The notes below the pieces were generated by a model. That model was given only the letters and a program-made list of their open reading frames with translations, was not told the DNA's origin and ran no database searches. Position numbers and translations under genes: made by a program. Source: Flavobacteriales bacterium (GTDB lineage: Bacteria > Bacteroidota > Bacteroidia > Flavobacteriales_F > PHOS-HE28). Taken from it: DNA of 64,000 nucleotides. Shown here piece by piece: positions 8,203 to 64,000 of this stretch (the first letter of the stretch is position 1; each line of letters begins with the position of its first letter). The DNA lies in assembly GCA_023382455.1 (NCBI GenBank), contig JAHDVX010000002.1, positions 62,001-126,000 of the forward strand. The letters run 5' to 3'.

Positions 8203-9498
8203 CTACAGGGTGCCTTCCCACTCCTCCGGGCCGCTCTCCGGAACGGGCGGACCCTTGCGCCACCAGCGGGCGCGGCGCACGTGCAGCAGGCCACTGTACA
8301 AGAAAGCCCCGATGAGCGCGCCGGTGGCGATGGCCGTGAGGATGAACAGCAGCTGCAGGATGCTTCCGGCCGTGCCCATACCCTCCGCGGCCATGGTGGT
8401 GATGCTCACCAGGCCGAACGATCCCGGGGCGAGCAGCCAGAAGGCGGGGATGATGGTCACCAACGCCGGCGGCCCCTTGAACCGGTATTCGATCACCAGG
8501 GCGGTGATGGCCATCACCGCAGCGCCGAAGAAGGCCGTGGAGGCCCCGTCCACCAACACGCCGCTGACGTACTGCCCGAAGTAGGCCATCAGCATGGTGA
8601 GCATCATCCAGGGCAACGACCTGCGCCGGCTGCTCATGAACAGGTGGAGGCCCAGCGCAAAGACCACCACGCCCAACCAGGCCAGCCAAGGGGCCAGGCG
8701 GTCGGCGGCCTGCATCATGGGCATTTCCCCACCGAACAGGCGGAAACCGCCCAGCAGGCCGAAGGCCAACAGGATCAGCTGCGTGAAGCCGGCCACCAGC
8801 CTGCTGGCCCCGGAGACCGTGTTGGAGAATGCCAGCTCCACCACGGCCACGGTGAGCATGATGCCGGGCAGGAAGACGATCAACGGCGGGATCAGCAGCT
8901 GGAACACGGGTTCCTGCACCCCGTACCGGTAAAGCAGCGCCACGGCCGAGGACAGGATGAAGGCCGCCACCACGGGCATCACGGCGGCCCAGGCCGGCTG
9001 CCGCCTTACGGCCACTTGCAGCAGGGCCGCCAGCAGGCCCAGCCCGGCCACATAGCCCAGCCCGCTCCACGTGGGGCGAAGGATGAGGGCGATGCCGATG
9101 GTGGTCAACAGGTAGCCCAGCACGTAGCCGAAGTCGCCGTACCGGTGCTTCATGCGCCAGACGGCATCCAGCTTGCGCAGGCCGTCCGCGGGCGACAGCC
9201 GCCCGGCGCGCGCCTCGCGGGCGATCTCCAGCACGCCCTCCATCTGGTCGAAGCGCAGCTCGCCCACGCGGTACGGCCCGGGAGTGATCTGCACGCGGTG
9301 CTCGTGCCCGTCATCGGACTGCACCATGAGCACGGTGGGCAGGGCGAAGACCAGGATGCCGGGCTGGCCGTGGCGCCTGGCGATCTGCCCCAGGTCGCGC
9401 TCCACCAGGGCCACCGCGTTACCGGCGGCCAGCTCGGCCTGCCCCAGGCGGGCCAGGAAGCGGAGCAGGGTGCGTTGCTGCGGGTCGGCCTCGGCCAT
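8203..9498 (-). CDS. Threonine/serine exporter family (ThrE-type) membrane protein
   Basis: The 431-residue protein has a soluble N-terminal part of about 125 residues, then roughly ten hydrophobic helices. The N-terminal half carries the ThrE/DUF1212 features (LLRFLARLGQAELAAGNA, and a PGIMLT turn); the C-terminal membrane half resembles the second ThrE domain. The family exports small amino acids such as threonine and serine. Here both halves are in one chain, as in Corynebacterium ThrE. The substrate is inferred from the family only. Confidence 0.85.
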   Translation of the reverse strand: MAEADPQQRTLLRFLARLGQAELAAGNAVALVERDLGQIARRHGQPGILVFALPTVLMVQSDDGHEHRVQITPGPYRVGELRFDQMEGVLEIAREARAGRLSPADGLRKLDAVWRMKHRYGDFGYVLGYLLTTIGIALILRPTWSGLGYVAGLGLLAALLQVAVRRQPAWAAVMPVVAAFILSSAVALLYRYGVQEPVFQLLIPPLIVFLPGIMLTVAVVELAFSNTVSGASRLVAGFTQLILLAFGLLGGFRLFGGEMPMMQAADRLAPWLAWLGVVVFALGLHLFMSSRRRSLPWMMLTMLMAYFGQYVSGVLVDGASTAFFGAAVMAITALVIEYRFKGPPALVTIIPAFWLLAPGSFGLVSITTMAAEGMGTAGSILQLLFILTAIATGALIGAFLYSGLLHVRRARWWRKGPPVPESGPEEWEGTL

Positions 9499-20595: not shown

Positions 20596-20632
20596 CTCCC
20601 TTCCCCGGCCAAGCCCCAGGCCTTGTCAGTTT

Positions 20633-20648
20633 GGTATGCACGCATACC
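20633..20648. promoter_or_regulatory. MarR-type operator upstream of marR (site 1)
   Basis: GGTATGCACGCATACC is a perfect 7-2-7 inverted repeat, 34 bp before the marR ATG. It is followed by a TACCTTCG -7 box (20657-20664) whose first base lies 16.5 bp from the operator centre. The near-identical site 2 at 30346 has the same spacing to its -7 box. Autoregulation by the adjacent MarR protein is inferred. Confidence 0.75.
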
Positions 20649-20682
20649 ATTTTCACTACCTTCGGGACCGAAGTTGATCGTG

Positions 20683-21114
20683 ATGAAGCCTGAGGAGACC
20701 ATCGATTTCCCCATCCGCAAGGTCTGGAACCGCATCTCCCGGATGTACAACACGGAAGCGGCCAAGTACGGCGGCAGCATGGCCATCGGCCAGATCCTGT
20801 TGAACATCGAACCCGGCGGCACACCCAGCACCAAGCTGGCGCCCAAGATGGGCATGGAAAGCCGCAGCATCGTGCGGACCCTGCAGACCATGCAACAGGC
20901 CGGATTGATCAAGCGGGAAGCGGACAAGGCGGACAAGCGTGTGGTGCGCATCCACCTCACCACGAAGGGCAAGCAGATGCGCGATGTGAGCCGGGACACC
21001 GTGGTGCGGTTCAACCAGGCCGTACAGTCACGGTTCACGCCCGCACAGATCAGCAACTTCCGGCAGATGATGAACGAACTGGACCGGATATTGGAACAGG
21101 AACAACTCTTCTGA
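20683..21114 (+). CDS. MarR-family transcriptional regulator of beta-oxidation genes
   Basis: The 143-residue protein starts at the ATG at 20683; the longer frame would extend over the operator. It has the MarR winged helix: a recognition-helix region (TPSTKLAPKMGMESRSIVRTLQTMQ), the wing (KREADKADKRVVRIHLTTKGKQM) and dimerisation helices at both ends. It heads the operon with the FadN-like enzyme. In many Bacteroidota the order is marR, hydroxyacyl-CoA dehydrogenase, thiolase, acyl-CoA dehydrogenase, so it is likely an acyl-CoA-responsive repressor. The ligand is not known. Confidence 0.88.
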   Translation: MKPEETIDFPIRKVWNRISRMYNTEAAKYGGSMAIGQILLNIEPGGTPSTKLAPKMGMESRSIVRTLQTMQQAGLIKREADKADKRVVRIHLTTKGKQMRDVSRDTVVRFNQAVQSRFTPAQISNFRQMMNELDRILEQEQLF

Positions 21115-21203: not shown

Positions 21204-23582
21204 ATGACCAAGAGGAACATCCGCAAAGTCGCCGTCCTCGGAAGCGGCGTCATGGGCAGCCGCATCGCGTGCCACTTCGCCAACATCGGCGCCGAGGTGC
21301 TGCTGCTGGACATCCCGCCCAAGGAGGGCACCGACCGCAACGCCGTGGCCAACGAGCACCTGAAGGCCGCGCTCAAGAGCAACCCCTCGCCCATCTACGA
21401 CAAACGCTTCGCGAAGCGTATCACCACGGGCAACTTCGACGACGACCTGCCGAAGATCAAGGACTGCGATTGGGTGATCGAGGTGGTTGTGGAGCGGCTC
21501 GACATCAAGCAGCAACTGCTGGGTCGCGTGGACCAGGTGCGCAAGCCCGGAACGCTCATCACCACGAACACCAGCGGCATTCCCATCCACGCCATCGCGG
21601 AAGGCCGCAGCGATGACTTCAAGAAGCACTTCTGCGGCACGCACTTCTTCAACCCGCCGCGCTACCTGCCGTTGCTGGAGATCATCCCAGGCCCGGACAC
21701 CGACCCGGCGGTGATCGCCTTCCTGGAGGAATACGGCCAACGGATCCTCGGCAAGGTCACCGTGCGGGCCAAGGACACGCCCGCCTTCGTGGCCAACCGC
21801 ATCGGCGTGTTCGGCATCATGGACGTCTTCCACCTGATCACCGACATGGGCCTTACCGTGGAGGAAGTGGACCGCCTCACCGGGCCGGTGATCGGCCACC
21901 CCAAGAGCGCCACCTTCCGCACGGCCGACGTGGTGGGCCTGGACACGCTGGTGAAAGTGGCCGAAGGCGTGAAGGATAACTGCCCCAAGGATGAACGCAA
22001 CGCGCTCTTCGCCATTCCGCCGTATCTGCAGAAGATGGTGGAGGGGAACATGCTGGGCAGCAAGACCGGCAAGGGCTTCTACTTCAAGGACCGCAGCAAG
22101 AAGGGCGAGATCCTGCAACTGGACCTGAAGACGCTGGAATACGTGCCGCAGGTGAAACCCAAGTTCGACACGCTGGCCGCCGCCAAGAAGGTGAACGACC
22201 TGCCCGGCCGGCTGAAGCTGGTGTACAACGGCAGCGACAAGGCCGGCGAATTCTACCGCCGCAGCTTCAACAGCCTTTTCGCCTACGTGAGCCACCGCGT
22301 GCCGGAGATCAGCGACGAGCTGTACCGCATCGACGACGGCATGCGTGCCGGCTTCGGCTGGGAGCTGGGGCCGTTCGAGAGCTGGGATGCGATCGGCGTG
22401 AAGGAGGTGCTGGAAACAATAAAAGGCGCTTCGGCTCCGCTCAGCGCAACGGAGAAGGTGGCAGCGTGGGTCGAAGAGATGGTGGCCGCTGGTCACACCA
22501 GCTTTTACAAGACCGAAGGCGGCAGGCGCCTGTACTACGATCCCGCCACCAAGGGCTACAAGCCAGTGCCACGCGCCGAGGGCCTGATCGTCCTGGCCGA
22601 CCTGCCGGAAACGAGCATCGTGTGGAAGAACAAGGACCTCACCGTGCGCGACCTCGGCGACGGCATCCTCTGCGCCAGCTGGAGCACCAAGATGAACACC
22701 TTCGGCAGCGGCGTGATCCAGGGCCTCAACAAGGCCATCGACATCGCGGAGCAGGGCTATAAGGGCCTGGTGATCTACAACGACGGGCCGCTCTTCAGCG
22801 CCGGCGCCGACGTGGGCATGATCTTCATGATGGCGGTGGAACAGGAATACGACGACCTCAACATGGCCGTGCGCACCTTCCAGCACACCATGATGCGCAT
22901 GCGCTACAGCAGCATCCCCGTGGTGGCCGCGCCGCACCAGCTCTGCCTCGGCGGCGGCACCGAACTCTGCCTGCACGCCGACAAGGTGGTGGCGCACGCC
23001 GAGACCTACATGGGCTTGGTGGAATTCGGCGTGGGCGTGATCCCCGGCGGCGGCGGCACCAAGGAATTCACCCTGCGCCTCAGCGACGAACTGCGCGAGG
23101 GCGACATCCGCACCAACACCTTCCGCCACCGCCTGCTCACCATCGCCCAGGCCCAAGTGAGCACCAGCGGCCACGAAGCCTTCGCACTCGGCTACCTCCG
23201 CCCCGGCATCGACGAGGTGATCGTCAGCCGCCAGCACCAACTGGCCTACGCCAAGCAATGCGCCCTCGCGCTCTGGAACAAGGGCTACACGCAGCCCGCG
23301 CCCCGCAAGGACATCACCGTGCTGGGCGTGGAAAGCCTCGGCCTCACCTACTCCGGCGCGGACAGCATGACGAGCGGCCACTACATCAGCGAGCACGACC
23401 AGTTGATCAGCCAAAAGCTCGGCCACGTGATGTGCGGCGGCGACCTGAGCGAACACACCGAGGTGAGCGAGCAATACCTGCTGGACCTTGAACGGAAGGC
23501 GTTCGTGGAGCTGTGCCAGCAGCGGAAGACGCTGGAGCGGTTGCAGAGCATCATTACATCAGGCAAGGTGCTCCGGAATTGA
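21204..23582 (+). CDS. fadN: 3-hydroxyacyl-CoA dehydrogenase / enoyl-CoA hydratase fusion (FadN-like)
   Basis: The 792-residue protein carries out two beta-oxidation steps. The N-terminal NAD-binding domain opens with VAVLGSGVMGSRIACHFANIG, followed by the HADH C-terminal domains (VANRIGVFGIMDVFHLI). The C-terminal third is a crotonase domain with the oxyanion-hole segments FSAGADVGMIF and LCLGGGTELCLHAD. This order, dehydrogenase first, is that of Bacillus FadN and not of E. coli FadB. It lies 89 bp after marR. The thiolase expected next is displaced by the restriction-modification island. Confidence 0.92.
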   Translation: MTKRNIRKVAVLGSGVMGSRIACHFANIGAEVLLLDIPPKEGTDRNAVANEHLKAALKSNPSPIYDKRFAKRITTGNFDDDLPKIKDCDWVIEVVVERLDIKQQLLGRVDQVRKPGTLITTNTSGIPIHAIAEGRSDDFKKHFCGTHFFNPPRYLPLLEIIPGPDTDPAVIAFLEEYGQRILGKVTVRAKDTPAFVANRIGVFGIMDVFHLITDMGLTVEEVDRLTGPVIGHPKSATFRTADVVGLDTLVKVAEGVKDNCPKDERNALFAIPPYLQKMVEGNMLGSKTGKGFYFKDRSKKGEILQLDLKTLEYVPQVKPKFDTLAAAKKVNDLPGRLKLVYNGSDKAGEFYRRSFNSLFAYVSHRVPEISDELYRIDDGMRAGFGWELGPFESWDAIGVKEVLETIKGASAPLSATEKVAAWVEEMVAAGHTSFYKTEGGRRLYYDPATKGYKPVPRAEGLIVLADLPETSIVWKNKDLTVRDLGDGILCASWSTKMNTFGSGVIQGLNKAIDIAEQGYKGLVIYNDGPLFSAGADVGMIFMMAVEQEYDDLNMAVRTFQHTMMRMRYSSIPVVAAPHQLCLGGGTELCLHADKVVAHAETYMGLVEFGVGVIPGGGGTKEFTLRLSDELREGDIRTNTFRHRLLTIAQAQVSTSGHEAFALGYLRPGIDEVIVSRQHQLAYAKQCALALWNKGYTQPAPRKDITVLGVESLGLTYSGADSMTSGHYISEHDQLISQKLGHVMCGGDLSEHTEVSEQYLLDLERKAFVELCQQRKTLERLQSIITSGKVLRN

Positions 23583-23608: not shown

Positions 23609-23733
23609 TTGGGCGTGCCCCGGCTCAAATGCAGCCGGGTCGCGCTTGGAGTTCAGCCCGGGCAAGGACCCGGGCCTGCAAGTCCTCGCGCGGATTACCG
23701 CGTTGTGGGCTTTCCGCTTCAATCGCTCACGCG
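23609..23733. repeat. Left arm of imperfect inverted repeat flanking the R-M island
   Basis: Between the FadN stop and the island lies a non-coding segment that matches, in inverted order, the segment at 26473-26564. Shared blocks are the first 27 bp (GGGCGTGCC...GCTCAAATGCAGC), AGTCCTCGC, and GGGCTTTCCGCTTCAATCGC with CTCACGCG. The order of blocks is conserved although the spacing differs. It resembles short dispersed repeats found in Bacteroidota intergenic DNA. Confidence 0.6.
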
Positions 23734-23769
23734 AAAGGCAGCATTACCTTTCAACCACATCCACAAAAC

Positions 23770-24453
23770 ATGGCAACTGTGAACACCTTCATCCCTAGAA
23801 ATGGCACCTTCGAGAAATTCGAACTTGAGCCAATGTCATTCAATGATACTGTCACTCGATTAGGATACCATCCTAATCAAGTCCGATCTCACCACAACAT
23901 CAATGTCGAGTGCATCTATTGGGTTGGCTTCAAAATCTTCACAAACGAGATAGTTGCCATTGCGACGGGCGCTGACACGTTGGACCCAACACTCCTATCT
24001 CGATTCATCTCGAACTACGACGCGAGGTATGAGAGATACGAAATCGAAGGGATACTTGATGACGGAGTTACGAATGGGTCATTGAGCGCAGACTACCTGT
24101 CGAGCGTACTTGGCATACCTCCTGTCGACCCCAATGGGTCTATTGTTGCGCCCACACTCGGATACGAGTTGGTCTTTCTTGATGGCAAGCTTGCGGGTTA
24201 CCAGCCAAGTGATGGCCTGAGCATGTGGGCGAAGTCGATGAAGGAGAGCAACCCTAAGCTATTTGCGAGCTATCTCATAGCTGGCCGGAAGCGATGGAAT
24301 AACGATGAAGACAGAGTACGAATCGAAATCAACGCACAAGCAGATGCCTTTGCCAACATTCCTCAAGGTCTGCTCAACCCCCTGATTGAGCAATACCGTC
24401 AATCAGATGGTACAATTGACTTTGTCCAGTTGATGAATGAGCATTACAGCTAA
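23770..24453 (+). CDS. Unknown 227-residue protein, first gene of the R-M island
   Basis: The start at 23770 (MATVNTFIPRNGTF) follows an A-rich leader. The protein is soluble, without signal peptide or membrane segment. It has an N-terminal beta-rich part (VECIYWVGFKIF, EIVAIATGAD) and a helical C-terminal half (SMWAKSMKESNPKLF...YLIAGRKRW). Codon use is visibly more AT-rich than its neighbours and differs from the following methyltransferase, suggesting separate recent acquisition. It lies 21 bp before the methyltransferase on the same strand. No family was recognised; a role in the R-M system is only positional inference. Confidence 0.7.
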   Translation: MATVNTFIPRNGTFEKFELEPMSFNDTVTRLGYHPNQVRSHHNINVECIYWVGFKIFTNEIVAIATGADTLDPTLLSRFISNYDARYERYEIEGILDDGVTNGSLSADYLSSVLGIPPVDPNGSIVAPTLGYELVFLDGKLAGYQPSDGLSMWAKSMKESNPKLFASYLIAGRKRWNNDEDRVRIEINAQADAFANIPQGLLNPLIEQYRQSDGTIDFVQLMNEHYS

Positions 24454-24474: not shown

Positions 24475-25335
24475 ATGCCTACGACCCACGAACACGACGG
24501 CCACGCCATCATCCACGGCGACGCGATCGCAGCGCTACAACAGCTCGTGCCGGACAATTCCGTGGACCTGATCTTCGCCGACCCGCCCTACAACATCGGC
24601 AAGAACTTCAACGGCCGCATGGACCGCTGGCCCAGCGACGAAGCGTACATGGCGTGGTGCCGACAATGGATCGACCTCTGCCTCGCGAAGCTGAAGGACA
24701 ACGGCAGCTTCTACCTGATGACCTCCACGCAGAACATGCCGCACTTCGACCTGTACGTGCGGCAGAAGGCGCACATCCTCTCGCGCATCGTGTGGTCGTA
24801 CGACAGTTCAGGGGTGCAGGCCAAGCGCTACTACGGTTCGCTCTACGAGCCGATCCTGTTCGGCGTGAAGGACAAGGACCACTACACTTTCAACGCCGAC
24901 GCGATCATGGTGGAGGCCCGCACCGGCGCCAAGCGCAAGCTAATCGACTACCGCAAGCCCGTGCCCACGCCGTACAACACACAGAAGGTACCGGGCAATG
25001 TCTGGAACTTCCCGCGTGTGCGCTACCGCATGGAGGAGTACGAAGAGCACCCCACGCAGAAGCCCACCGCGCTGCTGGAACGCATCGTGCTGGCAAGCTC
25101 CAACCCCGGCGACATCGTGCTGGACCCGTTCTCCGGTACGTTCACCACGTCGTTCGTGGCTAAATCGCTGGGGCGGCGGTCCATCGGCATCGAGATCGAC
25201 GAGGAGTACATGAGGATCGGGCTACGGCGGCTGGGCATCCGCGACGAGTACAACGGCGAGAAGCTGCGCCGGAAGCCCAAGACCTACCAACAGCCCAAGG
25301 AGGAGCCACAGCATCTGGTCCTATTCGAGCCCTGA
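24475..25335 (+). CDS. DNA adenine N6-methyltransferase, YhdJ-like (predicted ATGCAT specificity)
   Basis: The 286-residue enzyme has catalytic motif IV first (DPPY, residues 36-39) and the AdoMet-binding motif I late (DPFSGTF, 217-223), the beta-class order. The target-recognition part (SRIVWSYDSSGVQAK, KVPGNVWNFPRVRYRM, HPTQKP) closely follows that of E. coli YhdJ, which modifies ATGCAT. It lies 2 bp before the putative endonuclease gene, so it is probably the protective half of a type II system. The specificity is inferred from similarity I recall, not from an alignment. Confidence 0.9.
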   Translation: MPTTHEHDGHAIIHGDAIAALQQLVPDNSVDLIFADPPYNIGKNFNGRMDRWPSDEAYMAWCRQWIDLCLAKLKDNGSFYLMTSTQNMPHFDLYVRQKAHILSRIVWSYDSSGVQAKRYYGSLYEPILFGVKDKDHYTFNADAIMVEARTGAKRKLIDYRKPVPTPYNTQKVPGNVWNFPRVRYRMEEYEEHPTQKPTALLERIVLASSNPGDIVLDPFSGTFTTSFVAKSLGRRSIGIEIDEEYMRIGLRRLGIRDEYNGEKLRRKPKTYQQPKEEPQHLVLFEP

Positions 25336-25337
25336 CC

Positions 25338-26450
25338 ATGGACCACGCCTTCACCCCGGAGATCAGGGCGGTCCTCGCCAAGCACTTCAAGGCCCGCGCC
25401 GATGAGGTGTTTGAGCGCAGCCCGCTGCTCCAGTACATTAATATCAAGACCCGTTCGGCCACGCGCGGCTCGAAGTCGCGCAGCAGCTACGCGAACCTCT
25501 ACGCCATCTATGTGCTGGTGGAGGACTATGTGCAGCGCGGCTTCCACAAGAAGGGCGGCTACGCCAAGGACGCGGGCGCGCGGTTCAGCACGCTCTTCAA
25601 GCGGCAGCGCGAGCTTCCGTTCGGCGGCAAGCTCCAGAACCACGCGCTGAACCACCGCATGAACGAGGAGTTCAAGAAGTTCTTCCCGCAGGTGGAGGCC
25701 ACGCCGATCCTGCGCGTGGTGGAGACCAAGCGCTACTGGATCAACGAACAACTGCTGAAGGTCGGCAAGGGCAGGAACGAATTGCATATCGGTCCCACCG
25801 TGCTGGAGATCATCGACGCCTACACCACGGTGAAGAAGCGGTCGTTCGAGGAGTTCATCGCCACCTGCGAACGGCTGAACAGGATCGCCGGGAAAGGCTC
25901 CGGCGAGATCGAGGCGTTCATCATGGGCCTGCTGGCGCCAACCGTGGATGCCCGGTTGTTCGAGATCGTGAGCTACGCCATCCTGAAGCACTTCTACCAC
26001 GACCAGAAGGTGTGGTTTGGTTTCCAGCGGAACAAGGTGAAGGCGGACCGGCTGAAGCTGTTCAAGACCGGCCGCACCAACGCCAACGACGGCGGCATCG
26101 ACTTCGTGATGCAGCCACTGGGCCGGTTCTTCCAAGTGACCGAGACCTTGGACGTGAAGAAGTACTTCCTGGACATCGACAAGATCGAGCGCTACCCGAT
26201 CTCGTTCGTGATCAAGTCCGAAGCTTCCATCGGCGACCTACAAGCCCAGCTACGACACGGTGCCGAAAAGCAATACGGCGTGAAGGCCGTGGTGGACAAG
26301 TACATGAGGTGCATCGAGGAGGTCATCAACATCGACGTGCTCCGTACACGTTTCCGCAAAGCCATGAAGGACGGTCACCTGAAAGGCATCATCGGGGAAA
26401 TTGTGCTTCAGAGCAAGGTGGAGTTCAACTATGAGGATGAGGAACAATAG
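25338..26450 (+). CDS. Putative type II restriction endonuclease partner
   Basis: The 370-residue protein has no membrane segment. Its N-terminal 200 residues are basic and helical. A PD-(D/E)XK-like core is suggested by a helix with Glu209 (LFEIVSYAILKHFY), then Asp255 in GGIDFV and a strand ending QVTE (266-269). The usual catalytic Lys position is Thr268, so the active site is either a variant or elsewhere. Its position 2 bp after an ATGCAT-type methyltransferase gives the main support. If correct, it should cut at or near ATGCAT. Confidence 0.7.
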   Translation: MDHAFTPEIRAVLAKHFKARADEVFERSPLLQYINIKTRSATRGSKSRSSYANLYAIYVLVEDYVQRGFHKKGGYAKDAGARFSTLFKRQRELPFGGKLQNHALNHRMNEEFKKFFPQVEATPILRVVETKRYWINEQLLKVGKGRNELHIGPTVLEIIDAYTTVKKRSFEEFIATCERLNRIAGKGSGEIEAFIMGLLAPTVDARLFEIVSYAILKHFYHDQKVWFGFQRNKVKADRLKLFKTGRTNANDGGIDFVMQPLGRFFQVTETLDVKKYFLDIDKIERYPISFVIKSEASIGDLQAQLRHGAEKQYGVKAVVDKYMRCIEEVINIDVLRTRFRKAMKDGHLKGIIGEIVLQSKVEFNYEDEEQ

Positions 26451-26648: not shown

Positions 26649-27824
26649 ATGAACGCATACATCATCTCCGGTTTCCGCTCCGCTGTCGGCAAGGCGCCGC
26701 GCGGCAAATTCCGTTTCACCCGGCCGGACGACCTGGCCACCCACGTGGTGAAGCACCTGATGGCCTCCGTGCCCAACCTGGCGCCCGAACAGGTGGACGA
26801 CCTGATCGTGGGCAATGCCACGCCCGAGGCCGAGCAGGGCCTGAACATCGGCCGCATGATCAGCCTGATGGGCCTGGACACCGACAAGGTGCCGGGCATG
26901 ACGGTGAACCGCTATTGCAGCAGCGGCAGCGAGACCATCGCCATCGCCTCGGCCAAGATCCACAGCGGCATGGCCGATGTGATCATCGCCGGCGGCGTGG
27001 AGTGCATGAGCCCGATCCCCTTCGGCGGCTGGCGCATCGTGCCCAACGCCAAGGTGGCCCGCGAGCACCCCACGTGGTACTGGGGCATGGGCCTCACCGC
27101 CGAGGCCGTGGCGCGCGAGTACAAGGTGAGCCGCGAGGACCAGGACACCTTCGCGCTGAAGAGCCAGGAGAAGGCGCTGGCCGCCATTGCCGCCGGGCGC
27201 TTCAAAGAGGAGATCGTGCCCTTTGAGGTGGAGCACACCTTCCTGGACGGGAACCAGAAGCGGCAGGTGGAGAAGTACACCGTGGACACCGACGAGGGTC
27301 CGCGCGCCAGCACCTTGGAAGGCCTGGCGAAACTGAAGCCCGTGTTCGACGCGAAGGGTACGGTAACGGCCGGCAACAGCAGCCAGACCAGCGATGGCGC
27401 GGCCTTCGTGCTGGTGGTGAGCGAGCGGATGCTGAAGCAGTTGAACGTGCAGCCCATCGCGCGGCTGATGGCCTACCACGTGGCGGGCGTGCCCCCGCGC
27501 ATCATGGGCATCGGGCCTACGGCGGCGGTGCCCAAGGTGCTGGAGCGCGCGGGCCTGAAGCTGCAGGACATTGAACTGATCGAGCTGAACGAGGCCTTCG
27601 CCAGCCAGAGCGTGGCGGTGATCCGCGAGCTGGGCCTCAACCCCGACATCGTGAACGTGAACGGTGGCGCCATCGCCATGGGCCACCCGCTGGGCTGCAC
27701 GGGTACCAAGCTCACCGTGCAACTGCTGAACGAGATGCGGCGCCGCAAACAGAAATATGGCGTAGTGACGATGTGCGTGGGGAACGGGCAGGGTGCGGCG
27801 AGTGTATTTGAGTTGTTGAATTGA
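26649..27824 (+). CDS. fadA: Acetyl-CoA acyltransferase (thiolase) of beta-oxidation
   Basis: The 391-residue enzyme cleaves 3-ketoacyl-CoA to acetyl-CoA and a shortened acyl-CoA. The nucleophilic Cys90 lies in VNRYCSSG. The second catalytic pair is in [12 protein letters not shown], and NEAFASQS is present. Length is normal. It is the next step after the FadN-like enzyme, from which it is separated by the R-M island. No operator of the marR type is seen directly upstream, so it may depend on read-through or an unrecognised promoter. Confidence 0.94.
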
Positions 27825-30062: not shown

Positions 30063-30345
30063 GGTTCAGGGGGCCGGATATCCGTGAATATCCGCAAATA
30101 CCCGCAACGTATCCGAAAACCGGGATGCCGCGTGAGGGGCAGGAGCGGCGGCCTGCCGATGGTGCGCCGCTGGTGCGGCGCGTGCGAGGAGGCTGCGACG
30201 CAGGAGCAGACCCCGGAGCCGCCCCCGCACCCGGCGCAACGAGGCAGCCACAGCGGATGACCCGACCCGTGCGCGGGCCCGTGCGCGGCAAGGGGCACGC
30301 CCGCCATCGGCTGCGCTCGGGCTGATGCGTGCCAATCGTCATTTT
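30063..30345. other. GC-rich intergenic region without recognised gene
   Basis: This divergent intergenic stretch lies between the 2H phosphoesterase and the acyl-CoA dehydrogenase operator. It contains several GC-rich inverted repeats (for example around 30163-30187) but no codon-biased frame. Short open frames in it lack protein character. I see no RNA gene. Confidence 0.4.
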
Positions 30346-30361
30346 GTTATGCACGCATACC
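30346..30361. promoter_or_regulatory. MarR-type operator upstream of acyl-CoA dehydrogenase (site 2)
   Basis: GTTATGCACGCATACC differs from site 1 (20633-20648) at one base. Its centre lies 16.5 bp from the first base of the -7 box at 30370-30377, exactly as at marR. This places it over the -33 region, fitting repression. Confidence 0.75.
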
Positions 30362-30369
30362 TTTTTTAT

Positions 30370-30377
30370 TACCTTTG
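30370..30377 (+). promoter_or_regulatory. -7 promoter box of acyl-CoA dehydrogenase
   Basis: TACCTTTG matches TAnnTTTG exactly and follows a T-rich run right after operator site 2, 49 bp before the ATG. Confidence 0.6.
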
Positions 30378-30426: not shown

Positions 30427-32235
30427 ATGAGCACTGAAACGAAGAAAGCCCTGCAGGGCGGCGAATTCCTGATCCGCGAGAGCGCACCGGAGGACATCTT
30501 CATCCCCGAGGAATTCAACGAGGAGCAACGCATGATCGCGCAGACCTGCACGGAGTTCCTGGAGCAGCACGTGTGGTCACAGCTGGACGCGATCGATGCA
30601 CAACAGGAAGGGCTGATGCCCTCAGTGTTGGGCAAGGCGGGGGAACTGGGCCTGTTGGGCATCTCGATCCCCGAGCAGTACGGCGGCTACGGCAAGGATT
30701 TCGTGACGGGCATGCTGGTGACGGAGAAGACCGGCGCGGGGCACAGTTTCAGCGTAGCCATCGCGGCGCACACCGGCATCGGCACCCTACCCACCCTGTA
30801 CTACGGCAATGATGCGCAGCGGGCCAAGTACATTCCCAAGCTGGCCAGCGGCGAATGGAAGGCGTGCTACTGCCTGACCGAGCCGGGCAGCGGCAGCGAC
30901 GCCAACAGCGGCAAGACCAAGGCGGTGCTCTCACCCGACGGCAAGCATTACCTGCTCACCGGGCAGAAGATGTGGATCACCAACGCGGGCTTCGCGGACG
31001 TGTTCACCGTGTTCGCGAAGATCCACGACCCGAAGACCGGCGAGGCGGACGAGAACCTCAGCGCCTTCATCGTGGAGAAGGGCTTCAGCGGCATCACGCT
31101 AAACCCCGAGGAACACAAGATGGGGATCAAGGGCAGCAGCACGCGGCAGGTGTTCTTCAACGATTGCCCGGTGCCGGTGGAGAACCTGCTGAGCGAGCGC
31201 GGCAACGGCTTCAAGATCGCCGTGAACATCCTGAACATCGGGCGGATCAAGCTGGCGGGTGGCACGGTGGGCGGCTCGAAGGCCGTGGTGGACCACTGCG
31301 TGCAGTACGCCAACGAGCGGCAGCAGTTCGGGCGGCCGATCAGCTCCTTCGGGGCCATCCGCCAAAAACTGGCCGACCAAGCGATCAACTGCTACGTGGT
31401 GGAAAGTGCCATCTATCGGTGCAGCCATGACATGGAGAACAAGATCCAAGAGCTGAAGGCCGCCGGTGCCGACCATGCGCAGGCCCTGCTGAAGGGCGTG
31501 GAGCAGTTTGCCGCCGAGGCCGCGATCCTGAAGGTGGCCGGCAGCGAATGCCTGGACTACGTGGTGGACGAAGGCGTGCAGATCTACGGCGGCATGGGCT
31601 ACAGCGCGGAAAGCCCCGTGGAGCGCGCCTACCGCGACAGCAGGATCAACCGGATCTTCGAAGGCACGAACGAGATCAACCGTATGCTCACGGTGGACAT
31701 GCTGCTGAAGCGCGCGTTGAAGGGCCAGCTGGACCTGCTGGGGCCGGCGCAGGCCGTGGCCGAGGAACTGATGGGCATCCCGGAGATGCCGGAGCCGGAC
31801 GACAGCCTGCTGGCCGATGAGAAGCGCATGGTGGCCAACTTCAAGAAGGCCGTGCTGATGACCGCCGGCGGGGCCGCAAAGACGCTGGGCATGGAGCTGG
31901 CCAAGCACCAGGAAACGCTGATGCACATCGCCGACATGGTGATCGATACCTACCTGGCGGAGAGCGTGCTGCTGCGGACCCTGAAGCTGGCGGGCATGAA
32001 AGGCGCCGACCAGGTGAAGGAGCAGGTGGCCATGTGCCAACTGTACATCCACGAGGCCGCCGACCGCATCCACAAATACGCCAAGGAGGCCGTGAACAAC
32101 TTCGCGGAGGGCGATGAGCAGCGCGCCATGCTGATGGGCGCCAAGCGCTTCGCCAAGAACACGCCGCTGAACACGGCCGAGCTGCGGAAGGCGATCGCCA
32201 AGAAGATGATCGCGGAGGGGAAATACTGCTACTGA
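30427..32235 (+). CDS. Acyl-CoA dehydrogenase, VLCAD-like
   Basis: The 602-residue flavoenzyme catalyses the first step of beta-oxidation. Seen are the FAD/substrate signature (CYCLTEPGSGSDANS), KMWITNAGFADVF, and the catalytic Glu region RINRIFEGTNEINRML. A C-terminal extension of about 170 residues is typical of the long-chain type used in Bacteroidota. The ATG at 30427 is preferred over an upstream TTG. It has its own operator and promoter and is displaced from the thiolase by two unrelated genes. Confidence 0.94.
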   Translation: MSTETKKALQGGEFLIRESAPEDIFIPEEFNEEQRMIAQTCTEFLEQHVWSQLDAIDAQQEGLMPSVLGKAGELGLLGISIPEQYGGYGKDFVTGMLVTEKTGAGHSFSVAIAAHTGIGTLPTLYYGNDAQRAKYIPKLASGEWKACYCLTEPGSGSDANSGKTKAVLSPDGKHYLLTGQKMWITNAGFADVFTVFAKIHDPKTGEADENLSAFIVEKGFSGITLNPEEHKMGIKGSSTRQVFFNDCPVPVENLLSERGNGFKIAVNILNIGRIKLAGGTVGGSKAVVDHCVQYANERQQFGRPISSFGAIRQKLADQAINCYVVESAIYRCSHDMENKIQELKAAGADHAQALLKGVEQFAAEAAILKVAGSECLDYVVDEGVQIYGGMGYSAESPVERAYRDSRINRIFEGTNEINRMLTVDMLLKRALKGQLDLLGPAQAVAEELMGIPEMPEPDDSLLADEKRMVANFKKAVLMTAGGAAKTLGMELAKHQETLMHIADMVIDTYLAESVLLRTLKLAGMKGADQVKEQVAMCQLYIHEAADRIHKYAKEAVNNFAEGDEQRAMLMGAKRFAKNTPLNTAELRKAIAKKMIAEGKYCY

Positions 32236-59303: not shown

Positions 59304-60734
59304 TCAGTCGCAGCTACCCGCCGCATCCGGCTGGCCTTTGCGGGGTGTAAAGGCGTAGACCAGGCCACCCAAGGCCACGATGCCCAGGCCCATGCCTGCA
59401 TACAGCGGCTTGCTCCAAAGCAGGTTCAGGCAGAAGGCCGCCGCACCCAGGATGTACAGTGCGGGCAGCACCGGATAGCCCCAGGCACGGTAAGGACGCT
59501 CGGCCGCAGGCTCCTTCACGCGCAGCACGAAGAGCCCACTGATGGTGACGATGTAGAAGAGCAGTGAGGCGAACATGGTGTAGTCGAGCAGATCGCCGTA
59601 GCGCCCGCTGAGGCACAGCAACGAGGCCCAGATGCATTGCACCCACAACGCGAAGCCGGGCACCGCGGCCTTGTTCAGCGTGCCTGCACGGCGAAAGAAG
59701 AGCCCATCGTTCGCCATGGCGTAGTAGAGCCGCGCACCCGAAAGGATGATGCCGTTGTTGCATCCGAAGGTGCTCACCATGATCAATCCGGCCATGATCA
59801 TTGCGCCCTTGTTGCCGAAGATCACCTCCGCTGCCGCCGCGCCCACGCGGTCCTCCGTGGCATGCTGGATCTCGCTCACCGGAAGCAGGGCCAGGTAGGC
59901 CGTGTTGGCCAACAGGTACAGGACGGAGACCAGCGCGGTGCCCAGCACCAGGCCCAGCGGGATGTTGCGCTGCGGCCGTTCCACCTCACCGGCGATGAAG
60001 GTGACGTTGTTCCAGGCGTCGCTGCTGAAGAGCGAACCCACCATGGCCACGCCGAACGCGGATAGCAGGGCCAGGCCCGCCAGCGGATAGGTGGATCCGG
60101 TGCCGTCCTTCGCGATGTCCAGGTGCGTGGCCTGCCAACCCGCGCTGAAGTTGCGCTCCAGCACGCCACTGCCGGAAGCCACCCACAGGCCCAGCACCAC
60201 CAGGCCCATCACCGCGATGATCTTCGCCAACGTGAACACGGTTTGCAGGGTCTTCCCGTTCTCCACCCCGCGTGCATTGAAGGCGGTGAGCACCACGATG
60301 CTCGCGATGGCCAGCACCTGTGAGGCGTTGACCTCCAGGAAGCCGAGGTCCAGCAGGACATTACCGGCACCCAGCGAAGGGACGAACACCGCCGTGTACT
60401 TGGCGAAGGCCACGGCCACCGCCGCGATCAGCCCGGTCTGGATCACGGTGAACACCGTCCAACCGTAGAGGAAGGCGGGCAGCTTGCCGAAGGCCCGTTG
60501 GATGTACACATACTGCCCGCCGGCCTTGGGCATCATGGCGGCCAACTCGCCGTAGCTCAGCGCCGCCAGGATGGTCATCACCCCGGCGGCCACCCAGGCC
60601 AGCATCATCCAGGAAGGCGAGCCCAACTGCCGCAGCATGTCGGCGCTGACGATGAAGATGCCGCTGCCGATCATCGATCCGGCGACGAGCATCACAGCGT
60701 CCAGCAGGGTCACAGAGCGTTTGAACTCAGCCAT
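59304..60734 (-). CDS. APC-family amino-acid permease
   Basis: The 476-residue protein has about twelve helices and the APC signature VAGSMIGSGIFIVSADM in the first helix. Also seen are SYGELAAMMPKAGGQYVY and GEVERPQRNIPLGLVLG. A C-terminal 70-residue hydrophobic part completes the fold. It transports an amino acid or peptide; substrate unknown. Its upstream region contains MarR operator site 3, shared with the divergent TonB receptor, so it may also belong to that regulon. Confidence 0.9.
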   Translation of the reverse strand: MAEFKRSVTLLDAVMLVAGSMIGSGIFIVSADMLRQLGSPSWMMLAWVAAGVMTILAALSYGELAAMMPKAGGQYVYIQRAFGKLPAFLYGWTVFTVIQTGLIAAVAVAFAKYTAVFVPSLGAGNVLLDLGFLEVNASQVLAIASIVVLTAFNARGVENGKTLQTVFTLAKIIAVMGLVVLGLWVASGSGVLERNFSAGWQATHLDIAKDGTGSTYPLAGLALLSAFGVAMVGSLFSSDAWNNVTFIAGEVERPQRNIPLGLVLGTALVSVLYLLANTAYLALLPVSEIQHATEDRVGAAAAEVIFGNKGAMIMAGLIMVSTFGCNNGIILSGARLYYAMANDGLFFRRAGTLNKAAVPGFALWVQCIWASLLCLSGRYGDLLDYTMFASLLFYIVTISGLFVLRVKEPAAERPYRAWGYPVLPALYILGAAAFCLNLLWSKPLYAGMGLGIVALGGLVYAFTPRKGQPDAAGSCD

Positions 60735-60795
60735 GTCGGGGTGGTTGGAGGGCGGCCAATGTAACAGGACCGCGGACCGCGCTGGCCGAAAAAAT

Positions 60796-60811
60796 GGTAT
60801 GCATGCATAGC
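60796..60811. promoter_or_regulatory. MarR-type operator between permease and TonB receptor (site 3)
   Basis: GGTATGCATGCATAGC differs from site 1 at two positions, one in the spacer and one in the right half. It lies in the divergent promoter region. A TATATTGG box for the receptor starts at 60830, 26.5 bp from the operator centre, one helical turn further than at sites 1 and 2. The site contains two overlapping ATGCAT sequences, the predicted target of the methyltransferase at 24475. Confidence 0.6.
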
Positions 60812-60873
60812 AATTGGGTGGAGGCCTTCTATATTGGCTCCGTTCTACCCGTCCAACCCATCCCCCACCCACT

Positions 60874-63798
60874 TTGAGGCATTTCCTTCTCCTCATCGCC
60901 CTTCTTGTCCGGTCCTTTCTTCCTGAACTGCATGCACAGGCCACGCAGCTGCGTGGAAGCGTCCACGACGGCTCCACCGGTGAAGCCTTGGTGGGCGCGG
61001 TGGTGAAAGTGAAGGAACTGACTGGCGGCGCCGTCACGGACCTCGACGGGCGGTTTTCGCTGGCCGTGGACCGGGAGCCGCCCTTCACCCTGCAGGTGGT
61101 GTACTTCGGCTACGCCAGCCAGGAGCTCACCATCACCAGCCTGGAGAAGGAGGTGCGGGTGAACCTGGTGCAGGACGCGGTGATGCTGCAGGATGCCGAG
61201 GTGGTGCGCCAGCGCATCAGCGACAAGCAGAAGCAGGAGCCCCTCACCGTGGAGCGCATGGACCTGATCGCCATCAAGGAGGTGGCGGGGGGCGACTTCT
61301 ACGAAGGGCTGGGCAACCTCAAGGGCGTGGACATGACCGCTGCCAGCTTCGGCTTCAAGGTGATCAACACGCGCGGCTTCAACAGCACCAGCCCCGTGCG
61401 CTCCCTGCAGCTGATCGACGGCGTGGACAACCAAAGCCCCGGCCTGAACTTCAGCCTCGGCAACTTCCTCGGTGCAAGCGACCTGGACGTGCTGAGCGTG
61501 GATGTGATCGCCGGTGCAAGCACTGCCTACTACGGGCCCGGCGCCTTCAACGGGGTGATCAACATGACCACCAAGAGCCCGTGGATGTTCCCCGGGCTGA
61601 GCGTGAGCCTGAAGGGCGGCCAGCGCAACATGCTGGAAGCCGCGGTACGCTGGGCCGATGTGCTGGGCGACAGCTCCGGCACGCAACGCTGGGCCTACAA
61701 ACTGAACGCCTTCGCGCTACGAGCCGATGACTGGTGGGCCGAGAACTACGACCCCACCAGCGACAGCCCCACAGGCATCGACCACCCCGGACGCTACGAC
61801 GCGGTGAACATCTACGGCGACGAGGACGTGAGCATCAACAACAACTACGCCCGCGGCATCACCGACCGGAGGGATTATCCCGGCCTGGGGCTTTTCCTGC
61901 GCAACGGATACAAGGAAAGCGACCTGGTGGACTACGCCACTCACAACATCAAGCTCGGCGGGTCGCTCCACTACCGCATCCACGACAGCTTGGAGGTGAT
62001 CGCCGCCAGCAATTTCAGCACCGGCAGCACGGTGTACCAAGGCGACAACCGCTACCGCCTGAAGGACATCACCTTCTTCCAGCACCGGCTGGAGATCCGG
62101 CAGGAAGGCAAATGGTTCGCCCGTGCCTACGTGACGCACGAGGATGCCGGCAACACCTACGACATCTACACCACCGCATTGCGCCTGCAGGAGGCGGCCG
62201 GCCTGACAGGTGGAGCCAACGGCTGGAACTTCGAGTACAACAAGTTCTGGGGGGATTCCATCACCCCGCTGGTGCGCGCCTTGCCCGGGTACATCACCGT
62301 GAGCCAAGCCGTGGCCATGGGCTGGACCCAGGCCCAGTGGATCGCCTGGCAGGACCAATACGTGCTCGACAACCTTTCCGTGTTCCAAGGCTTCCACCAG
62401 CAGGCACTCGATTACACCAACAACCTCAACACCGCCTACCTCGACCCCTTCCTGGTGCCCGGCACCGACCGCTTCAATGAGGCGTTCGCCGAGATCACCG
62501 GCAAGCGCTTCACCGAGGGCGGTTCGCTCTTCTACGACAAGAGCGTGCTGGCCCATGCCATGGGCGAATACAAGTTTGACCTGGGAACGAAGCATTGGAA
62601 CCATACCGGAAGGCAGCGGTATGTCCGCAAAGACCTACAGCTTACCGTGGGCGGCAACTTCCGCCAGTACCTGCCCAACAGCGCGGGCACCATCTTCCGC
62701 GACACCGGCGACGTGCGCATCCGCAACCGTGAATTCGGGCTGGTGGCCGGCCTGGAACGGAAGATGCTCGCCAAGCAGCTCACCGGCACGTTCACCTTGC
62801 GCATGGACAAGAACGAGAATTTCAAGGCCCTCTTCTCCCCCGCCCTCTCCTTCGTCTACGCCAAGGCCCCGGCGCACGTGTTCCGCCTCAGCTTCAGCAG
62901 CGCCATACGCAACCCCACGCTGGCCGACCAGTACCTCTACTACAACGTGGGCCGCGCCCTGCTGCTTGGCAACGTGGACGGCCAATTCGAGGCCGGCCGT
63001 GACTCGCTCTTCACCCTGGAGAGCTTCAACGATTACCGCAACCAATCCCAGCTAAGCACCACCAACCTCGACTACTTCAACGTGGACCGCGTGAAGCCCG
63101 AGCAGGTAAGGACCATCGAGGCGGGCTACCGCGGCACCCATTGGGAAAGCGTGTACATCGACCTCAGCGCGTATAACAGCTGGTACACCGACTTCATCGG
63201 CTACATCATCGGCCTGCACGCCGATTTCCAGACCCCCACCTCCGTGCCCCAGCGCCTGCAGGCCTACCGCGTGGCCGCCAATGCCAACGCCACCGTGGTG
63301 ACCCGCGGACTGAACGCCGGCCTGAACTGGTACCGCCCCAAACTCACCTACACCTTCAACTACGGCCTGAACGTGCTGACCACGGGAGAGGACGACCCGA
63401 TCATTCCCGCCTTCAACACCCCGCGGAACAAATTCAACCTCGGCCTCAATGCCCGCGACCGCAGGATCCCCTTCACCACGCTGAAGCGCCTGGGCTACGG
63501 CGTGAACTGGAAGTACGTGGAGGGCTACACCTTCGAGGGCTCGCCGCAATTCACCGGAGCGATCCCCAGCTACGACATGGTGGACGCCCAGGTGAACGTG
63601 AAATTCCCCAAGCAGGACCTCACCGTGAAACTGGGGGCCAGCAACATCTTCGGCCTGCTGCCGCTATGGGATGAACACGTGGCGGACGGCGACCGCCTGG
63701 ATCGCGCCTGGAACAATGACGTGTACCTGGTCTACGGCGGACCGCGCATCGGCCGGCTGGCCTACCTGCAGCTCACCTACGAATTCAGCACACGCTGA
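60874..63798 (+). CDS. TonB-dependent outer-membrane receptor
   Basis: The 974-residue protein starts most plausibly at the TTG at 60874, which gives a proper signal peptide (HFLLLIALLVRSFLPELHAQ); an earlier in-frame TTG at 60814 overlaps the operator. A carboxypeptidase-regulatory-like domain follows (LRGSVHDGSTGEALVGAVVKV), then a plug domain (VINTRGFNSTSPVRSLQLIDGVDN, STAYYGPGAFNGVINMTTKSP). A large barrel ends in LQLTYEFSTR. It imports an unidentified large ligand using TonB energy. The operator suggests lipid- or fatty-acid-related cargo. Confidence 0.92.
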   Translation: MRHFLLLIALLVRSFLPELHAQATQLRGSVHDGSTGEALVGAVVKVKELTGGAVTDLDGRFSLAVDREPPFTLQVVYFGYASQELTITSLEKEVRVNLVQDAVMLQDAEVVRQRISDKQKQEPLTVERMDLIAIKEVAGGDFYEGLGNLKGVDMTAASFGFKVINTRGFNSTSPVRSLQLIDGVDNQSPGLNFSLGNFLGASDLDVLSVDVIAGASTAYYGPGAFNGVINMTTKSPWMFPGLSVSLKGGQRNMLEAAVRWADVLGDSSGTQRWAYKLNAFALRADDWWAENYDPTSDSPTGIDHPGRYDAVNIYGDEDVSINNNYARGITDRRDYPGLGLFLRNGYKESDLVDYATHNIKLGGSLHYRIHDSLEVIAASNFSTGSTVYQGDNRYRLKDITFFQHRLEIRQEGKWFARAYVTHEDAGNTYDIYTTALRLQEAAGLTGGANGWNFEYNKFWGDSITPLVRALPGYITVSQAVAMGWTQAQWIAWQDQYVLDNLSVFQGFHQQALDYTNNLNTAYLDPFLVPGTDRFNEAFAEITGKRFTEGGSLFYDKSVLAHAMGEYKFDLGTKHWNHTGRQRYVRKDLQLTVGGNFRQYLPNSAGTIFRDTGDVRIRNREFGLVAGLERKMLAKQLTGTFTLRMDKNENFKALFSPALSFVYAKAPAHVFRLSFSSAIRNPTLADQYLYYNVGRALLLGNVDGQFEAGRDSLFTLESFNDYRNQSQLSTTNLDYFNVDRVKPEQVRTIEAGYRGTHWESVYIDLSAYNSWYTDFIGYIIGLHADFQTPTSVPQRLQAYRVAANANATVVTRGLNAGLNWYRPKLTYTFNYGLNVLTTGEDDPIIPAFNTPRNKFNLGLNARDRRIPFTTLKRLGYGVNWKYVEGYTFEGSPQFTGAIPSYDMVDAQVNVKFPKQDLTVKLGASNIFGLLPLWDEHVADGDRLDRAWNNDVYLVYGGPRIGRLAYLQLTYEFSTR

Positions 63799-63841: not shown

Positions 63842-64000
63842 ATGAACAGAAAAGTACTCCTTGCCATACCGCTCGCGGCGGCCGCACTGACCGCATCGGC
63901 CCAGGACCGCTACCTCTCCGAGGTATTCACCGCCTCGCAGGTCACGGTCACCGACGGGATCACCTTCGGCACGAACATCGATTTCATGACCTCGGACTTC
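63842..64000 (+). CDS. Exported protein, N-terminus only (possible alpha/beta-hydrolase)
   Basis: A frame from the ATG at 63842 to the window end gives 53 residues: a signal peptide (VLLAIPLAAAALTASAQ), then DRYLSEVFTASQVTVTDGIT and FGTNIDFMT. The mature start resembles that of secreted Bacteroidota alpha/beta-hydrolases (lipase/esterase type), but the catalytic part lies outside. It follows the TonB receptor by 43 bp and is probably in the same operon. Confidence 0.6.
   Translation, partial: MNRKVLLAIPLAAAALTASAQDRYLSEVFTASQVTVTDGITFGTNIDFMTSDF

Follow-up and report, generated by a model that had tools for sequence, protein, structure and literature searches.

A conserved palindrome upstream of a TonB receptor gene and a predicted MarR regulon of fatty-acid degradation in Flavobacteriales

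Three copies of a palindrome in one genome

The window analyzed here is a stretch of 64,000 nucleotides from a Flavobacteriales genome (assembly GCA_023382455.1, contig JAHDVX010000002.1, positions 62,001 to 126,000). As described in the initial annotation, an amino-acid permease gene on the minus strand (59304-60734) and a TonB-dependent receptor gene on the plus strand (60874-63798; the TTG start was assigned from relatives) diverge from a common intergenic region. This region contains an 18-bp palindrome, TGGTATGCATGCATAGCA (60795-60812), symmetric at 16 of its 18 positions. The inner 12 bp (60798-60809) of segment 60796-60811, GGTATGCATGCATAGC, form a perfect palindrome. An Rfam search of the permease-receptor intergenic region returned no match. 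The palindrome had been reported to be shared among three places, and both siblings are indeed present: TGGTATGCACGCATACCA at 20632-20649, before marR-fadB and just 5′ of TACCTTCG (20657-20664), and TGTTATGCACGCATACCT at 30345-30362, before an acyl-CoA dehydrogenase gene and just 5′ of TACCTTTG (30370-30377). Other long perfect palindromes of the window are found at 8501-8520 (20 bp) and at 60941-60956 (16 bp), the latter close to where the receptor coding region begins.

Genome-wide counts were obtained by pattern searches for TATGCRYGCATA. The 3.43-Mb genome contains three exact matches, all inside the window and all at the three operators just described, while about 0.33 per genome is expected by chance from composition. 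In the first 35 genus genomes 69 exact sites were counted, compared to 5 for a reversed control. The centre of the genus sites is variable, being AC/GT, AT or GC. When up to three mismatches are allowed, the 12-bp core occurs in the window 18 times against 14.9 expected, i.e. not above chance, which speaks for a chance palindrome at 60795-60812. However, exact matches are rare and their placement is conserved across species and families, which makes a chance origin extremely improbable.

A MarR-family regulator and fatty-acid degradation genes

The gene downstream of copy 1 (20683-21114, plus strand) codes for a MarR-family regulator whose winged-helix domain matched PF01047 with 33.8 bits (Pfam gathering cutoff 24.6). 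Further along the same strand are genes for a FadB-like 3-hydroxyacyl-CoA dehydrogenase/enoyl-CoA hydratase (21204-23582) and an acetyl-CoA acyltransferase (thiolase; 26649-27824). The gene downstream of copy 2 codes for a FadE-like acyl-CoA dehydrogenase (30427-32235, plus strand). A 274-aa open reading frame without a known domain follows fadB (23629-24453); since a 78.5%-identical counterpart adjoins fadB in G009, it is probably a real gene.

The domain match and the sites upstream of orthologues make the MarR protein the presumed binder of the palindrome and suggest that it is autoregulated. An exact 12/12 palindrome was found 36-60 nt before the start in 26 of the 30 MarR orthologues examined, usually just 5′ of a TAnnTTnG-like −7 box, with a gap of 5-10 nt. 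No nearby site was detected at three of the 30 (G003, G031 and G056). Orthologues with an exact self-upstream site include some from families f5 and f24. The site is likewise present at the orthologues near 55% identity in G038 and G057, which represent two families outside that of the genus, and, again close upstream, at the more distant orthologues of G047, G042, G037 and G054. Class-level genomes with MarR contain a mean of 2.9 sites, compared to 0.5 in those without it (Mann-Whitney p = 0.0013). Among genus genomes the operator repeatedly precedes the acyl-CoA dehydrogenase gene; its targets in other families include genes for ETF beta, short-chain dehydrogenases/reductases, a thioesterase and an acyl-CoA dehydrogenase. 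The simplest reading of this distribution is that the palindrome serves a putative autoregulated MarR repressor of beta-oxidation.

Two more placements were recorded. A fourth operator target that recurs in the genus is a small DUF7793/SpoIIAA-like protein about 140 aa in length (L034, L046, L050, L106, L119, L133). In G057 and G038 (L135, L189) an operator lies between divergent genes for ETF beta and a 2-oxoacid-dehydrogenase E1 beta-like protein, the latter named by eye.

The predicted regulator resembles FabT, a MarR-family lipid repressor, in being a small, autoregulated winged-helix protein with a palindromic operator over its own promoter and with lipid genes as targets. FabT, however, controls fatty-acid synthesis in Firmicutes, whereas the Bacteroidia MarR protein described here is placed at genes of degradation. 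Its match to the FabT model was weak, reaching 27 bits where the cutoff is 200. A predicted repressor over beta-oxidation genes shares its logic with FadR, PsrA and the TetR-type FadR, but these are members of the GntR and TetR families and the window regulator is a member of the MarR family. Repression by FadR, PsrA and the TetR-type FadR is relieved by acyl-CoA or fatty acid. To our knowledge, a TonB receptor operator is not part of the classical FadR/PsrA regulons. A search of the open-access literature, which does not prove absence, retrieved no MarR regulator of beta-oxidation in Bacteroidetes. The regulon is newly delineated, while the regulation itself is of an ordinary type.

The receptor promoter and the secreted partner

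The TonB-dependent receptor contains CarboxypepD_reg_2 and plug domains. Its matches to the plug model PF07715 (34.5 bits) and the beta-barrel model PF00593 (76.8 bits) were both above cutoff; the score with the SusC/RagA model TIGR04056 (88.7 bits) was far below the cutoff of 368. The receptor operator is kept in six genus genomes including this one, being exact in three (G000, G028, G019) and differing at a single position of the 12-bp core in the other three (G022, G012, G003). An exact operator is also present upstream of the receptor gene of G038, a genome of another family whose receptor is 54% identical. Alignment of receptor upstream regions revealed the operator as the best-conserved block, along with a probable Bacteroidota −7 box, TATATTGG (60830-60837, plus strand), which we assign to the receptor promoter and which is also found upstream of the receptor in G022, G003 and G032. 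Since the operator is kept in the six genus genomes and in G038, the link of the receptor to the lipid regulon, suggested in the initial annotation, is well supported by phylogenetic footprints. The operator is missing before the receptor in the close congeners G017 and G032, only a weak match was seen in G020, and no operator was found at any genus receptor of 66% identity or less. The link is therefore lineage-specific. The match before the G020 receptor (12/18, containing ATGCAT) was not counted, since random stretches often reach a score of this kind.

Because the operator lies between two divergent genes, it might regulate the permease instead of, or as well as, the receptor, and the permease also adjoins in G028 and G003, both of which keep the operator. 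On the other hand, G017 and G032 have an adjoining permease without an operator, and no good −7 box at the usual distance was seen by eye on the permease side of the window region. In G038, moreover, the operator precedes the receptor, abutting the receptor's TATATTTG box, while the divergent gene codes for an oligopeptidase-like protein (named by eye). The receptor is thus the likelier target, since G038 shares it and differs in the divergent gene; control of the permease is unlikely.

The geometry of the receptor promoter differs from that of the other two. At marR and at the acyl-CoA dehydrogenase gene, 7 nt separate the end of the operator from the −7 box; at the receptor it ends 17 nt 5′ of TATATTGG and would therefore cover the −33 region. 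In G038 the operator directly follows the receptor TATATTTG box. Its position relative to the −33 and −7 boxes makes repression the likely sign of regulation at the receptor. The distance between operator and −7 box is greater here by some 10 nt, which makes repression less certain and activation possible.

A partner gene starts 43 nt after the receptor gene on the plus strand (63842-64000), runs off the window and continues in L214 (L214:343-2034). Its 563-aa product has an esterase/lipase-like fold and carries a T9SS sorting tail. Nearly all of the genomes examined across the class, other families included, have a homologue 3′ of the receptor. In nearly all orthologues the nucleophile motif reads G-E/Q-G-T/S-G-G, with glycine replacing the serine of GxSxG. 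Enzymatic activity of the partner is therefore uncertain. It may be an inactive hydrolase, or a non-canonical one, whose role is to bind a lipid ligand on behalf of the receptor. The pairing of receptor and partner fits lipid or ester scavenging.

We consider it probable, judging by sequence comparisons, that the MarR protein (20683-21114) uses the palindrome at 60795-60812 as an operator and would repress the fad genes and the receptor gene until released by an acyl signal. We infer the following mechanism. Bound between the −7 box and the −33 box, a MarR dimer would keep both the acyl-CoA dehydrogenase gene and the marR-fadB-thiolase operon repressed; at the receptor promoter, it would repress by occupying the −33 region. 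The ligand that relieves repression would be a fatty acid or acyl-CoA. The receptor and its T9SS-secreted esterase/lipase-fold partner would then be induced together with beta-oxidation and take part in scavenging of lipids or esters, the presumed transported substrates. Most likely, one switch governs fatty-acid breakdown together with the receptor and its secreted lipase-like partner.

Predicted ATGCAT methylation and the meaning of the regulon

A methylase gene and a nuclease gene (24475-26450) lie between fadB and the thiolase gene, on the same strand; about 21 nt separate them from the ORF in front. The first (24475-25335, plus strand) codes for a YhdJ-equivalog N6-adenine methyltransferase (PRK11524, 468 bits, cutoff 292), the second (25338-26450, plus strand) for a type II restriction endonuclease related to R.EcoT22I, as judged by homology to the pEC22 nuclease. 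The methylase is 63.8% identical to its pEC22 counterpart and the nuclease is 39.6% identical over 88%; comparison of the nuclease with PDB sequences produced no match. EcoT22I cuts ATGCAT. Plasmid pEC22 codes for M/R.EcoT22I, as stated in the title of one of the references of PMC5052281. YhdJ methylates ATGCA*T (PMC9239280). Unlike the plasmid-borne EcoT22I pair, which has an HTH gene beside the nuclease, the window pair is located inside the fad operon and no such gene was seen beside its nuclease. YhdJ equivalence together with EcoT22I-type homology of both proteins makes the prediction of ATGCAT specificity, already present in the initial annotation, a good one, and the window methylase most likely modifies this sequence. 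Avoidance of ATGCAT tells nothing about specificity: the window looks depleted (4 sites versus 19 in shuffles), but the genome as a whole is ordinary for the genus. Its 104 sites per Mb compare with a genus median of 117 and place it 11th of 35, and its ATGCAT/TACGTA ratio is not low; ATGCAT counts are low genus-wide.

The methylase-nuclease (R-M) pair was found in only 3 of 45 genus genomes. Six congeners examined (G009, G012, G017, G022, G023, G028) have no R-M insertion in the fad operon, and in G019 the pair lies elsewhere, on a contig stretch without fad genes. The nuclease gene of the pair is interrupted in G065 (L219, L220), where a change of frame, caused by decay or an assembly error, divides it. 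In the genome studied, the pair is a rare insertion in the fad operon assigned to MarR control. A scan between the fad genes and the pair found neither a −7 box nor a sigma-70-like promoter. If the pair is co-transcribed with the fad genes, MarR would control the R-M genes and not the reverse; restriction and methylation would then follow lipid status. Such wiring is compatible with MarR repression as proposed above, and the location of the pair, the scan and the absence of the insertion from the congeners are in its favor. R-M genes, however, often have promoters missed by such scans, and lipid-dependent expression of a methylase could harm, so we regard it as a tentative possibility.

The opposite direction of influence had been raised as a speculation, namely, that the ATGCAT methylase modifies operator adenines and alters MarR binding, so that the R-M pair might indirectly control the receptor. 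Copy 3 does contain, as noted earlier, two overlapping ATGCAT sequences (60799-60804 and 60803-60808, sharing 2 bp), which are two of only four in the window, and the specificity is backed by the YhdJ and EcoT22I homology. The arrangement is reminiscent of the Pap and agn43 Dam switches, where a regulator site overlaps adenine-methylation sites. Unlike in those systems, the methylation site is present in just one of three window operators and is not conserved within the operator. ATGCAT arises only when the operator centre is AT, and both siblings are AC-centred and lack it. Hand-tallied AT centres account for 1 of 10 genus sites in R-M-bearing congeners and 11 of 85 in the rest (Fisher p = 1). 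G019 has a 93%-identical methylase, yet its receptor operator is GT-centred, and none of the four operator sites of G065 is AT-centred. The rarity of the pair in the genus likewise argues against a methylation switch. In Salmonella, the transcriptome hardly responds to the loss of all YhdJ methylation: 12 genes changed in LB, and under SPI-2-inducing conditions no gene did (PMC9239280). Control of the receptor by operator methylation thus appears highly improbable, and the overlap looks like a coincidence; under MarR repression it would be a by-product of an AT centre in the variable middle of the operator. Just as improbable is a strain-specific closed loop in which the MarR promoter drives the R-M pair and the methylated AT-centred operator alters MarR binding at the receptor-hydrolase unit. 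If true, lipid uptake would be set through methylation and apart from beta-oxidation.

The analysis tells a real operator apart from a methylation motif that overlaps it by coincidence. The operator is defined as TATGCRYGCATA and can hence be searched for in any genome. Its sequence, rarity, placement and conservation delineate a compact predicted regulon of fatty-acid degradation in uncultured Flavobacteriales and other Bacteroidia. Through the same operator, a conserved outer-membrane receptor and its secreted esterase/lipase-fold partner would be attached to lipid catabolism, which gives this pair a testable function.
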